From an uncultured Eubacterium sp. (GTDB lineage: Bacteria; Bacillota; Clostridia; Lachnospirales; Lachnospiraceae): DNA of 64,000 nt. Below the pieces are notes generated by a model. It was not told where the DNA came from, searched no databases, and saw only the letters and a program-made list of their open reading frames with translations. Positions within the stretch are counted from its first letter, which is position 1, and the number at the start of each line of letters is the position of its first letter. Both the position numbers and the translations under genes were made by a program. Location of the stretch: NCBI GenBank assembly GCA_905235555.1, contig CAJOMD010000008.1:1-64000 (forward strand), in the 5' to 3' direction. Shown here in pieces: positions 6,819-45,840 of the stretch.

Positions 6819-7757
6819 CTATTTCTTCTTTTTCTTGTCAACCAGCCTAAATCCTACAAGAGAAACTTTGTCTTTGTCTAAGTCATAAGTCAAAGTCATA
6901 ATAACTTTTCTCTTCCCTTTTTTCTTGAAAATATAACTATTTGAAACAGAGATATCAGTGGCTGATTTATATTTGTAACTATAACTATATATAGAGGTAA
7001 ACTGTTTCTTCTTGGCGTTATACTTAAATTCTTTGTTAATGGAGTTAATCTTAATATCCTTTATGGCATATTTTTTGATTTTTCCATTCTTTGACCCCTT
7101 CGTCAAAACCTTAATATTTTTACTTGCAGCTTTTCTTATAGAATTTTTCACTGCCTTTTTATTTTTGAAAAGAGCAATCACATCATTACATTTTTTATCT
7201 TCATTCCTAATGGCAGTATAGTATCTATTCATTAAAGCATCAGCAGATGCACTGAGAGTATTCCTATACTCATTAGCCATCATCTCTTCGTCTTCATTCA
7301 CCTTGCTCAAATCAACTTGATAAGTTGGATTGAAGAATCCTCGTTTTGAAAAGTAGACTGTGAAGTTCTTCCTTGACTTGGTCTGATCATCCTTACAAAT
7401 CATAGTGATGCACTGTGTTCCATCCTTACTCTCAACTTTGCCTATATCATATGAATCTATCTCATATGTTTGGCGAAGACTCCTCATTTTTTCTATAAAT
7501 TTTTCTTTGCTAATTTTGCTAGTGTCTTTGTCCACCATCTTGTACATAGTGTCATAATCTTGCATTATAAATGCGCGAAGATATTTAGAGCCCTCATTTG
7601 TGGGATTGTTCGCATGTTGATAAACGGCGATTCCCATTCCAATAAGAATGCACGCAGCTATCGCTATTAAAATAATCACAAATGAATAAACTCTAGTCTT
7701 TCTAAATTTAGTAAATTTTTCTTTAAAACTTTCTTTCATTATTTTATCCTTCGTCAA
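6819..7757 (-). CDS. Hypothetical protein, single N-terminal TM, Lys-rich
   Basis: ORF with one N-terminal hydrophobic helix; no family recognised. Confidence 0.6.
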   Translation of the reverse strand: MTKDKIMKESFKEKFTKFRKTRVYSFVIILIAIAACILIGMGIAVYQHANNPTNEGSKYLRAFIMQDYDTMYKMVDKDTSKISKEKFIEKMRSLRQTYEIDSYDIGKVESKDGTQCITMICKDDQTKSRKNFTVYFSKRGFFNPTYQVDLSKVNEDEEMMANEYRNTLSASADALMNRYYTAIRNEDKKCNDVIALFKNKKAVKNSIRKAASKNIKVLTKGSKNGKIKKYAIKDIKINSINKEFKYNAKKKQFTSIYSYSYKYKSATDISVSNSYIFKKKGKRKVIMTLTYDLDKDKVSLVGFRLVDKKKKK

Positions 7758-7864
7758 ATTTCTCTCTGTTTAAAATGTTAACCATATATCTTGATTTTTT
7801 CAAGGCTTTTATTTATCATAATACTGTAAGACAGAACGGGTTATAAAAAATAGAGGATCTTAAA

Positions 7865-8494
7865 ATGACAGAGACTAATAAGGAAATTGCAATTATTGAA
7901 ATGTATATGAAAGATGTGGAAAATATTCCTCAACTTTCAGATGATGAAAAAGAAGATTTAATAATGCGATTAGCTGATGGAGATTCTTCAGTAGTTGAAG
8001 ATTTAGTTAATTCGGAGCTTTTGCATGTTGCTGAAATGGCTCAGAACTATCGCGATAAGGGCGTAACCTTTGGAGATTTGATTCAGGAAGGAAACGTTGC
8101 ACTCACGGAAGTGATTTCCGATTATGATGGAGACGGAGATTCTGAAGCATTTAATAAATTGGTGAATGAAGCTGTGACAGAAGCATTTGAAAATGCCATC
8201 AAAGATCAAGCAGATTCGGATAAGATTAATCAACACTTAGCTGATAAACTTAATCTTTTAGATGACACTACTAAAAAGTTGACTGAAAAACTTGGTAGAG
8301 TACCAGAGGCCAGTGAATTAGCTAAAGAGATGGATATCCCTGAAGAGGAGGTAGATAATCTATTAAAAATATCTTTAGAAGTATTGTCAGTGAATGAAGA
8401 TAGTCATCTAGCAGATGATATTGATTCATCTATAGACGAAACAGAAGAAGATGTATCAGATGAAGATCCATTAGACTGGAGAATTAACGGTTAA
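7865..8494 (+). CDS. Degenerate sigma-70-like protein (RpoD regions 1.2-3 resemblance, no region 4)
   Basis: VNSELLHVAEMAQNYRDKGVTFGDLIQEGNVALTEVISDYDGDGDSEAF... and KLTEKLGRVPEASELAKEMDIPEEEVDNLLKISLEVLSVNEDSHLADDI...DEDPLD mirror RpoD regions 2 and 3; RBS gagg upstream. Confidence 0.85.
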   Translation: MTETNKEIAIIEMYMKDVENIPQLSDDEKEDLIMRLADGDSSVVEDLVNSELLHVAEMAQNYRDKGVTFGDLIQEGNVALTEVISDYDGDGDSEAFNKLVNEAVTEAFENAIKDQADSDKINQHLADKLNLLDDTTKKLTEKLGRVPEASELAKEMDIPEEEVDNLLKISLEVLSVNEDSHLADDIDSSIDETEEDVSDEDPLDWRING

Positions 8495-8499
8495 ACATA

Positions 8500-8530
8500 A
8501 AAGTAGCGGTGGAAAAACCACCGCTACTTT
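8500..8530. terminator. Bidirectional intrinsic terminator
   Basis: aaagtagcggtgg aaaaa ccaccgctacttt between convergent stops. Confidence 0.9.
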
Positions 8531-8542
8531 TTTATTGTGATT

Positions 8543-10314: not shown

Positions 10315-13191
10315 CTACTTTAGACTTATATTGAAATCTGACTCATCTAGTAATTTGAGTCCCTTGTCATCTTTCTTTGATCCAAACAGTTTCTTTCCAA
10401 ATCTATCACTTCTTGCAATAGCTTTATCAATGATTTCTTCCACATCTAGTCTGCCTATGTGAGCACCAAATGCATCATCTATGGATTTAAATAATGCAAG
10501 TTCTGCCACTTCATCCAATTTATACCCTTGAGTCTCTGCATATTCACTTCCATATGCAACCCACTCGCGAATATTATACTGTTTTATTTTTATAACATTA
10601 TTGAATGTTTGTCCAAGACTAACTGTTGATGAAAGAAGATCTTCCATAGGTTCAGTCTCTGCTTCCAAAATGATAATAGAATCTGTATTGTTTGGATATA
10701 GATATTTTACAATTTCTTGTATTGTGGTTTGATGAATTTCATGAGCATTCTCAATAATTAAATCACAACCTTTAATTTGGTTTAGAATGCTAGCGAAGCC
10801 TTTTCTATTTAAAGTACTTGCGCTAATCTTAGCAATCTTTCTATTTCTTCTCTCGCTCTTCTTATTTACAAGTTTAATAATTTCGATAGCCATTGTAGTT
10901 TTGCCTGTCTTCTCATCGCCCATCACAATGACATTAGCATTAATATCTTTTTCTTGCCCTGTGAACTTTTTGATAAGATTATTGCAAACTTTTTTCACTG
11001 CATCTTCTAAGCCTTCTACATTTAAGTAGTTTCCAAATACAGCCATGTCACTATCTTCTACATCAAATTTAACGCGTTCAGTGTTTAGTTCTTTATTCTT
11101 CTCTTTGCTCATCTCATGTTTTAATTCTTTTTTAACTGAAACATCTACCACTTTAGTGGCTCCTAGGTCTTCTGCGTTTTGGTTTAACTCTTCTTTTGGT
11201 TCTTCCTTAGGTTCTACTTTTGGCTCTTCCTTCGATTCCTCTTTTGGCAACTCAGGTTTATTATCTGGGGTTTCACCAGAAATCATATCTATTTGCGCCG
11301 AAGATTCATTGCTCTCTTTTAGAACCTTTTCAATCTTTGGTGCTGGAGTTTCTTCTAGTTCAGGTTTGCTATTGTCCTGAGTAGTATACTCCCCGGACAA
11401 ATCGAACACTGGAACATCCTTTGACTGCTCACTAGTAGGTTTAACTGCCTCATCCAAAACCTTTGCAGCCTGAATAGGTTTCTTGCTTTCTTTTTCTAGT
11501 TCTTCACCATCAGGCATAACCTCAGTAGGCTTATGCATAACATCGCCTATGTCCTTAGTTTCTCCTAAGTCTGCACTATCATTTAATTCTGGTTCAAAAT
11601 CATCTAACTCTCCAGCTTCCACTGGCGCTTTATCAGAATTATCTACTAGGTTACTCTCAATTTCTCTTTCATCATCGGCTTCCCACTTGTTTCCAATTTG
11701 AACTGTGTGGAATTTGCTGTCATCAGTTTTTTCTGCCTCAATTTCTTCTGGTTCTTCTCTTGTATATCTATTTTGAGGTTTTTCAAAGTCCTCAGTATTT
11801 GTTGCAGGTTCTTCAGAAGCTACCCCTTTCGTAACTGGTTCTTCAGAGGCTACTTCCTCCACAGTGGGCTCATCAGAAGTTACTTCCTCCGTAATTGGTT
11901 CTTCTAAAGTTTCATCTTTAGGTTCTTCTTGCTCACTCATAATGCTGTCTACTTCCTCTTTTAGTTCTTCCTCTATTTGATGAGTGTCACTATTTATAGC
12001 ATCTACTGCTTTATTTACAGTATCCGCTCCTAAGATTCCTCTTTCTTGAAGAGACTTGAGCATATCTTCCACATCATCCACGTCCGGCAAAGGTTCCTCT
12101 GCTGGTTTTTCAGAAATATCTGGTATATTCTCTTCTTTCAAAAAATCAGGTTTTTCGTAATTTTGTGTTTCATTTGGCTGTTCATACTTATTATTTGAAG
12201 GTGAGTCATCATTAAAGAAACTCATCTGCTGCGGACCTTCCTCTACAGGCTGAGCAGTCAAAATGTTTTCAGGCTGAATCTTTGGTTCATCAGCCACTTT
12301 AATCTCCGTAATATCAAATGAAGGCTTATACTCGTTTGCAGAATCAGTATTTTGAACTTCTGCCTCAAAGTTTGACTCTCCAAGCGGTTTATCTAAACCT
12401 GGCTTCACTAATTTTTCCTCCCCAAATCCTTCTTCTTTCAAATCAATGCCAAAATGACTTGGCTCTTCTGGTTCCACATATGGAGTACGTTCAGGCTGTT
12501 TTTCCATAATAGTTTCTAATGGACTCTTCGAAACATGAGGTTCACTCTTTGGTTTTTCGACCACTTTTTCCTCCTCCACTGGATCTTCCTTATCTAACAA
12601 CTGCTGCTGAGTAATGTTAAGCGGCTGAATGGTTTTCTTAAGTTCCATAGCCTTTTTAATGTAGCGCCCTTCGGAGAACCAAAGTCCCATCTCATCACAT
12701 AGTTCAACACACTTTGCTGTATCACCAGTTTCTTTATATAGTTTAGCAAGCTCGTAAGCCCACTTTTCTTCCATATCAATATTTACATACTCTTCCAAAA
12801 TCTTGATTAACTCATCTTTTGGCTTGTTTAATGCTTCCGCCATTTTGTATTTTAGTACATAGCGACCAGTATCCTTTGGTGCCATCTCGACAAAGTCTTC
12901 GTAATATTCTTCAGCCTCGTCTATCTCTCCATTATTAATTGAAACAAGACATAATCTGTAAGCCAAGTGTCTTCCAGCCTTTGTATTTTCGTAAGCGTAA
13001 AGAAGAACTTGCTTTGCTAATTCATAATCATTAGATAATTCATATGCATCGGCAATCAAGCAAAGCAGATTGTTGTCTCTGATATGTTTTATATCAAGAG
13101 TGTCTGCAATCTGTACTGCAGTGTCATAATCCCTGTTGTTCATAGCAGTTTTAAATTGTTCAATTTTTCCGTCTTGTTCTACTTTTCCCAT
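10315..13191 (-). CDS. TPR - acidic low-complexity - C-terminal P-loop NTPase protein
   Basis: N-term TPR-like helices; about 500 aa E/P/K-rich region with EEP repeats; C-term Walker A VIVMGDEKTGKTTMAIEI. ORF track starts at a TTG (13197); ATG at 13191 follows gagga. Confidence 0.8.
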   Translation of the reverse strand: MGKVEQDGKIEQFKTAMNNRDYDTAVQIADTLDIKHIRDNNLLCLIADAYELSNDYELAKQVLLYAYENTKAGRHLAYRLCLVSINNGEIDEAEEYYEDFVEMAPKDTGRYVLKYKMAEALNKPKDELIKILEEYVNIDMEEKWAYELAKLYKETGDTAKCVELCDEMGLWFSEGRYIKKAMELKKTIQPLNITQQQLLDKEDPVEEEKVVEKPKSEPHVSKSPLETIMEKQPERTPYVEPEEPSHFGIDLKEEGFGEEKLVKPGLDKPLGESNFEAEVQNTDSANEYKPSFDITEIKVADEPKIQPENILTAQPVEEGPQQMSFFNDDSPSNNKYEQPNETQNYEKPDFLKEENIPDISEKPAEEPLPDVDDVEDMLKSLQERGILGADTVNKAVDAINSDTHQIEEELKEEVDSIMSEQEEPKDETLEEPITEEVTSDEPTVEEVASEEPVTKGVASEEPATNTEDFEKPQNRYTREEPEEIEAEKTDDSKFHTVQIGNKWEADDEREIESNLVDNSDKAPVEAGELDDFEPELNDSADLGETKDIGDVMHKPTEVMPDGEELEKESKKPIQAAKVLDEAVKPTSEQSKDVPVFDLSGEYTTQDNSKPELEETPAPKIEKVLKESNESSAQIDMISGETPDNKPELPKEESKEEPKVEPKEEPKEELNQNAEDLGATKVVDVSVKKELKHEMSKEKNKELNTERVKFDVEDSDMAVFGNYLNVEGLEDAVKKVCNNLIKKFTGQEKDINANVIVMGDEKTGKTTMAIEIIKLVNKKSERRNRKIAKISASTLNRKGFASILNQIKGCDLIIENAHEIHQTTIQEIVKYLYPNNTDSIIILEAETEPMEDLLSSTVSLGQTFNNVIKIKQYNIREWVAYGSEYAETQGYKLDEVAELALFKSIDDAFGAHIGRLDVEEIIDKAIARSDRFGKKLFGSKKDDKGLKLLDESDFNISLK

Positions 13192-13209
13192 TTTCAATTC
13201 CTCTTAAGA

Positions 13210-41599: not shown

Positions 41600-42094
41600 C
41601 TATTTTATTCTTTCAATAATATAGTCTTCTATCTTATCTAAATCAATTTCTAATGCTATAGAAAACTCATGATTTAAGAAGTCTTTAGCTTCTTTCAAAT
41701 ACCTATCATCGACAAAAGTGTTCCTTTTACCCTGTTTTTCGCGCTCCTTACTACGCACTTGCAAAGTTTTAATAATTTCTGCAAGCTTCAAACAGTCGCA
41801 TGAAGCGATAGCTTCTTTGTATACGACTTCTCTCTGCCTGTCATTTGCGATAAATACAGGCTCCACTTTTTTCATGTCTCGCAATACTTTCCTAGCCTCG
41901 TTTTTTGTCAGGATTGGTCTCAAAACAATTCTGTCATTATCAACTGGGAAGAAAATTTTGCTTTCAGGAGTTTTCACGGGTACCAAAACATAATACTTTT
42001 GGTCTTTGTCTTCCGACATATCAGTGGTGGTGATGTTTTCTACAATACAAACACCACTTCGTCCGTGGACAACATATTCTCCTTTTTTAAACAA
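41600..42094 (-). CDS. CarD family transcriptional regulator
   Basis: MFKKGEYVVHGRSGVCIVENI...YYVLVPVKTPESKIFFPVDND. Confidence 0.92.
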   Translation of the reverse strand: MFKKGEYVVHGRSGVCIVENITTTDMSEDKDQKYYVLVPVKTPESKIFFPVDNDRIVLRPILTKNEARKVLRDMKKVEPVFIANDRQREVVYKEAIASCDCLKLAEIIKTLQVRSKEREKQGKRNTFVDDRYLKEAKDFLNHEFSIALEIDLDKIEDYIIERIK

Positions 42095-44889: not shown

Positions 44890-45840
44890 ATGGAAAAATT
44901 GAAGAAAACTAAAATTAGAAATTCAGGACTGCTTTTGATTACCGCATTTATTTGGGGTATAGCTTTTGTTGCACAACTATCCGGCGGAAATACCGTAGGT
45001 CCTTTTACATTTAACGCTATCAGATCTTTGCTAGGGTGTCTTGCTCTAGTTCCAGTACTTTTAGTCGTGGACAAACTAGGACTTACACGCGGCGTGCCAA
45101 AGACAAATAAAGAAAAGAGAACTTTGATAGTGGGTGGAATACTGTGCGGACTTGCTCTTTGTCTAGCAAGCAATGTTCAACAAGTCGGATTGCTTTTAGG
45201 GCAATCAGCAGGTAAAGCAGGTTTTCTAACCACACTTTATATATTGATAGTTCCAATACTTGGAATATTCTTTAAAAGGAAATGTAGATGGAATGTTTGG
45301 GTGGGTGTAGTAATAGCCTTAGTTGGAATGTACTTGCTTTGCTTTAAAGGATCACTCTCATCATTTAAATTGGGAGACGGACTCTTGCTACTCACATCAC
45401 TACTATTTTCATTCCATATTTTAATAATCGATTACTACACTCCAAAAGTGGACGGAGTTAGAATGTCCATCATACAACTAGCAGTATGCGGAATAGTTAC
45501 GTTAATTCCAATGTACTTTTATGATATTCAAGTGCAAGCAGGAAGCTTCGCCAAATGGTTAGAACCTTTAACACAATTTGAATCCTGGATTCCAATCTTG
45601 TATGCTGGAATCCTATCATCGGGCGTAGCCTACACACTGCAGATAATAGGACAAAACAAACTAAACCCAACCGTAGCCTCACTAATCATGAGCTTAGAGT
45701 CCGTGTTTAGTGTAATAGCAGGCTGGGTGATCTTGGGCGACAAACTAACCCCACGAGAATTGCTGGGCTGCGGCTTAATCTTTACAGCCGTGTGCATCGC
45801 ACAGATGAGATTTTCAATAAATAAAAAGGAGTTTTCATAA
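44890..45840 (+). CDS. EamA/DMT family transporter
   Basis: Two EamA repeats; ITAFIWGIAFVAQ, ESVFSVIAGWVILGDKLTPRELLGCGLI. Confidence 0.9.
   Translation: MEKLKKTKIRNSGLLLITAFIWGIAFVAQLSGGNTVGPFTFNAIRSLLGCLALVPVLLVVDKLGLTRGVPKTNKEKRTLIVGGILCGLALCLASNVQQVGLLLGQSAGKAGFLTTLYILIVPILGIFFKRKCRWNVWVGVVIALVGMYLLCFKGSLSSFKLGDGLLLLTSLLFSFHILIIDYYTPKVDGVRMSIIQLAVCGIVTLIPMYFYDIQVQAGSFAKWLEPLTQFESWIPILYAGILSSGVAYTLQIIGQNKLNPTVASLIMSLESVFSVIAGWVILGDKLTPRELLGCGLIFTAVCIAQMRFSINKKEFS

Follow-up and report, generated by a model that had tools for sequence, protein, structure and literature searches.

A degenerate sigma factor of Lachnospira-group gut bacteria, possibly a transcriptional brake or decoy

The closest described relatives of the protein presented here are the group 1 sigma-70 factors RpoD/SigA (Pfam PF03979, PF00140, PF04542, PF04539 and PF04545). 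In Bacillus subtilis SigO-RsoA the sigma regions are carried by separate polypeptides. Phage T4 gp55 (with gp33 and gp45) is a sigma-family protein that has no region 4, binds RNA polymerase (RNAP) and is a promoter specificity factor with a coactivator. A lower level of RpoD holoenzyme is the outcome associated with Rsd, 6S RNA, mycobacterial Ms1 RNA and B. subtilis SigN. Rsd binds sigma, and Ms1 RNA binds core enzyme free of sigma (PMC4191392). SigN is a working sigma factor that outcompetes SigA for core, and competition for core alone can, as in its case, inhibit RpoD-type transcription (PMC10601692).

In the window, i.e. the whole stretch of 64,000 nucleotides analysed from an uncultured Eubacterium sp. 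of the Lachnospiraceae, the gene at positions 7865-8494 codes for a degenerate relative of RpoD, referred to as the dummy sigma. The dummy sigma family is homologous to RpoD/SigA over regions 1.2, 2.1/2.2 and 3 and, in many members, over region 1.1. Unlike RpoD/SigA, it is acidic and lacks region 4, the residues that read and melt the -10 element, and the tip of the sigma finger; of the features that define group 1 sigma-70 factors, the core motif of 2.1/2.2 is found, and the aromatic/basic residues of 2.3/2.4 and region 4 are not. It resembles SigO-RsoA in its incomplete set of sigma regions, but no region-4 partner was found in the genome and the -10 chemistry is lost too. It resembles gp55 in having no region 4 and, presumably, in binding RNAP, but has the residues for neither of the gp55 roles. 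With Rsd, 6S RNA, Ms1 RNA and SigN it would share the outcome, although none of these is a degenerate sigma. Literature searches returned no named family and no paper describing this one. The features of the locus are the following.

7865 to 8494, plus strand: dummy sigma gene, 209 residues, RpoD-derived by homology, lacking region 4 (orthologs; dN/dS 0.10-0.145)
7865 to 7999, plus strand: region 1.2-like segment, residues 1-45 (alignment to SigA; pooled dN/dS 0.08)
8075 to 8095, plus strand: putative core-binding motif DLIQEGN, residues 71-77, equivalent to Escherichia coli sigma70 403-409 (kept in 30-33 of 33 family members)
8117 to 8215, plus strand: degenerate region 2.3/2.4, residues 85-117, net acidic (residue comparison, charge)
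8216 to 8398, plus strand: region 3, residues 118-178, under the strongest constraint within the protein (Pfam region 3, 45.6 bits; pooled dN/dS 0.03)
8399 to 8491, plus strand: acidic C-terminal tail, probably disordered (pLDDT), ending in DPLDWRING
7852 to 7857, plus strand: Shine-Dalgarno sequence AGAGGA (GAGGA conserved in 8 aligned orthologs)
7775 to 7819, divergent: conserved promoter block with a dyad, upstream of the dummy sigma gene in 23 of 23 genomes
8499 to 8531, plus strand: strong, conserved intrinsic terminator with a 14-bp stem (dG -22.5 kcal/mol, z -7.6)
6819 to 7757, minus strand: gene of a membrane-anchored MecA_N/NTF2-like protein, the conserved divergent neighbour (Pfam MecA_N 23.8 bits, cut-off 22; synteny)

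The open reading frame is genuine and, with 44890-45840, one of two complete plus-strand genes of at least 90 codons in the window, as a first-pass annotation of the sequence had stated. The strongly negative charge that it reported corresponds to a pI of 4.05, with 58 acidic and 17 basic residues. It had also proposed a comparison with the profiles of regions 2, 3 and 4, in which Sigma70_r3 exceeds its cut-off (25.3 bits), Sigma70_r2 stays below (18.8 bits, cut-off 24) and Sigma70_r4, the -35 binding domain, has no match. The best NCBIfam match is RpoD (E 1.5e-27), under the curated cut-off of the model. Among PDB chains, phmmer aligns residues 11-186 with residues 121-301 of Clostridioides difficile SigA (E 9e-25), and identity to Bacillota RpoD is about 35-38%. 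In this alignment the segment YKFSTYATWWIRQAI is replaced and the protein stops past region 3.2. The annotation had thus correctly described a kept LIQEGN motif and region-3 block, a replaced region 2.3/2.4 and an end where region 4 would begin; no adjacent open reading frame supplies an intact region 4. At the positions of W433, W434, Q437, T440 and R441 the protein has E, A, E, E and N, and the sigma-finger tip within region 3 is shorter by 6 residues.

A helical, sigma-like model was obtained with AlphaFold2 from an alignment of orthologs and RpoDs (pLDDT 78, pTM 0.59). In it the degenerate region 2.3/2.4 is still helical, and pLDDT falls below 50 at residues 175-203 and 206-209. Foldseek places the model closest to chains of SigA and SigS from RNAP complexes (E 1e-7, probability 1.0), with modest TM-scores of 0.4-0.5 that reflect a different or uncertain domain arrangement in the model. 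As its homology in regions 2 and 3 is significant, the protein is a sigma-70 homolog by descent.

The first-pass annotation dealt with a single open reading frame; its description of that frame holds, but the gene belongs to a conserved Lachnospiraceae family in which many members have a region 1.1. Full-length orthologs of 209 residues at 85-91% identity occur in eight public metagenome-assembled genomes of the Lachnospira/Eubacterium type. Within the genus an ortholog was found in 23 of 23 genomes, none of which has region 4 in it. The 209-residue form is that of the small-genome clade of the window (1.1-1.7 Mb), with which the related genome G152, carrying a 169-residue form, is placed in the tree. 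Proteins from the remaining 14 genomes are longer (about 263-311 residues) and 47-51% identical, and they carry an additional region-1.1-like N-terminus (PF03979 over cut-off in L094) that was lost in the small-genome clade. A profile built from 26 members gives at least 265 bits for full-length members and at most 219 for RpoD; short members, L088 and L068 among them, reach about 200-213. At the strict threshold, members occur in 11 of the 150 Lachnospiraceae genera sampled, its own included, so that relatives exist in at least 10 further genera; these counts are lower bounds, since so strict a threshold misses short members like L088. At E 1e-66, none of the 242 remaining genomes sampled from the class gave a match. 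No relatives were recognised in the phage and plasmid collections, where the matches were below 60% identity and, where annotated, were RpoD or other sigma factors; an origin from these elements was rejected.

In the tree, family members and RpoD lie on opposite sides of one long branch with support 100/100, which is compatible with a single origin of the family, short of proof. The values of dN/dS listed for the gene come from comparisons with the window gene within the small-genome clade. Pooled by region, dN/dS in 2.1/2.2 is 0.10 and in 2.3/2.4 is 0.22. Judged by sequence, the family descends from RpoD and is under purifying selection; dN/dS and conservation rule out a one-off truncation or pseudogene. 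In automated annotation the family members score as RpoD-like, their top NCBIfam matches being RpoD models, and the loss of function is masked.

The distribution of kept and lost residues was determined on 33 aligned members in E. coli sigma70 numbering, with the roles of the residues in contacting beta' or DNA taken to be those generally assigned to sigma70. In the core motif, D403, L404, Q406, E407, G408 and N409 account for the retention given above, and this motif is the best-kept part across distant members. None of the 33 members has K426, W433, W434, T440 or R441; one retains Q437 and four retain R436, and at least 31 lack the finger tip (510-515). Retention of RpoD-invariant sites is higher for the core motif than for 2.3/2.4 (Mann-Whitney p = 1e-4, for sites that are not independent). 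Region 2.3 has a net charge of +2.3 in RpoD and -3.2 in the dummy family; for region 2.4 the values are +2.0 and -2.2. No region 4 is present in the alignment; a PF04545 match in L099 overlaps region 3 of that protein and was rejected as a region 4. By these residue patterns, core contacts are retained and the DNA-contact parts are lost family-wide.

The anti-sigma-like or decoy core-binding function proposed by the first-pass annotation is partly supported, the pattern fitting a core binder without promoter recognition; RNAP binding and the decoy effect themselves are inferred. An ancient duplicate of RpoD would have turned into a core-binding dummy that competes with RpoD, the best reading, to which even chances are given. 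DLIQEGN would dock the protein on the beta' clamp helices, where it would occupy the RpoD position and also that of NusG. It would bind or melt no promoter, since its presumed -10-facing surface is now acidic, and the RNAP pool open to RpoD would be lowered or held in reserve. Its level would be set by the dedicated, conserved divergent promoter shared with the membrane-protein gene. Some observations sit less well with the competing dummy. Constraint is stronger on region 3 than on the core motif. L402, which we take to contact beta' as well, is G or S in most members and kept in one of 33, and the motif has drifted in some (ELVAEGN in L084, DLIQSAN in L095). In region 3.0, H455 is found in 23 of 33 members and D at position 458 in 26; as such H455/E458-like residues are partly retained within the genus, some contact with DNA, or else another partner, is conceivable.

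In G150, an assembly of three contigs at 96% completeness, and in G154 and G155, RpoD is the only sigma-70 over cut-off besides the dummy sigma, and no sigma-54 was found; larger-genome relatives have about 9-18 region-2 matches. The dummy sigma is thus retained in reduced, near-complete genomes where RpoD is the sole true sigma, and a role as referee among alternative sigmas was rejected for the small-genome clade. A broader formulation falls a little short of even chances: the family would form a chromosomal class of Lachnospiraceae dummy sigmas. These RpoD duplicates, devoid of promoter-reading parts, would keep core RNAP (or RpoD) in reserve, and would be the sole other sigma-family protein left once genome reduction had removed the alternative sigmas. 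In the assembly of the window itself (G000, 1.41 Mb, 92% complete), no gene for RpoD, another sigma-70 or sigma-54 was found; the missing RpoD is probably an assembly gap, since long lysine/alanine/threonine repeats occur in the RpoD of this clade.

The dummy sigma gene is monocistronic, judged by its signals. In the promoter block the plus strand reads TTGATT-17-TATCAT and the minus strand TTGAAA-17-TAACAT, and the two -35 elements overlap in the dyad TCTTGATTTTTTCAAGG, with the consensus [CT]CTTGATTTTT[GT]CAAGG. The block with its dyad CTTGATTTTTKCAAG is nearly unchanged in the 23 genomes, even where the proteins are only about 50% identical (mean conservation 0.87 vs 0.49 in the flanks, which are not conserved). 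The dyad was rejected as a regulon operator, further matches being scattered and nearly all with one mismatch. The two genes form a divergent pair throughout the genus, and the pair recurs in some other genera, near L082, L083 and L084. This conserved pairing with overlapping promoters, together with the strong constraint on region 3, would suit a sigma fold with a partner other than RNAP, e.g. as the cytoplasmic partner of the MecA_N-type membrane protein in an envelope-sensing pair. Such a role is improbable, though the least so among the alternatives: the membrane gene is not adjacent in L085, L086, L088, L089, L092 and L099, and it is the core motif that distant members keep best.

A second partner to be considered is RpoD. 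Five genomes of the small-genome clade have RpoD assembled, and in these the segment preceding region 1.2 has a net charge of +22 to +31; for the remaining 14 genomes of the genus the values are -25 to -97. In these five RpoDs (L074-L077 and L162, from G154, G150, G155, G153 and G152) the segment is a strongly basic linker of about 100 residues, rich in K, A and T. The dummy sigma of that clade is more acidic than elsewhere and no longer has region 1.1. Because of this reversal, which possibly points to RpoD as direct partner and so counts against competition for core, anti-sigma action through binding of the very acidic protein to the lysine-rich linker between RpoD regions 1.1 and 1.2 is a serious rival. 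It is nevertheless rated unlikely, marginally more so than the membrane-protein partnership. The charge change is a lead only, as it is one clade-level event and not a correlation; elsewhere the family members are acidic although the RpoD linkers are acidic too, and the retained DLIQEGN would be left unexplained.

An action after initiation would use the same docking site as the competing dummy; sigma region 2 and the NGN domain of NusG bind a common site on the beta' clamp helices. On elongating or idle RNAP the protein could displace NusG or RpoD and tune pausing or recycling. Retention of the core motif would be expected here likewise, and the sequence offers nothing to separate this version from the free-core model; it is given a low probability. 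Very improbable is that the protein is one half of a split sigma receiving region 4 from another protein. Split sigmas such as B. subtilis SigO-RsoA and phage T4 gp55-gp33 are known (PMC10141391; PMC2988020; PMC7892883), but the residues for -10 reading and melting, needed by RsoA-type halves, are also lost, and neither in G000 nor in G150 does a lone region-4 protein pass the Pfam threshold; hits below it are short HTH proteins only. The only lone region-4-like match in G000, an open reading frame of 122 residues, is weak and was read as YlxM-type. A decaying duplicate with no function, to which truncation and degeneration relative to RpoD might point, is refuted within the genus by the dN/dS values, by conserved length, promoter and terminator, and by the presence of the gene in all genomes, strongly reduced ones among them, and is given next to no probability.

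If the dummy sigma binds RNAP, a sigma factor would be shown able to evolve into its own competitor, and abundant gut bacteria would have a protein counterpart of the 6S and Ms1 RNAs in setting the free RNAP pool. Core contacts kept and every DNA contact lost make a simple in vitro test possible. Two other genes of the window may be mentioned. The gene at 41600-42094 looks, from its N-terminal sequence, like that of a CarD/CdnL-type RNAP-binding protein. The gene at 10315-13197 codes for a protein of 960 residues with a TPR-like N-terminal part, a long acidic middle and an ATPase-like C-terminal part, and is conserved next to transketolase genes.
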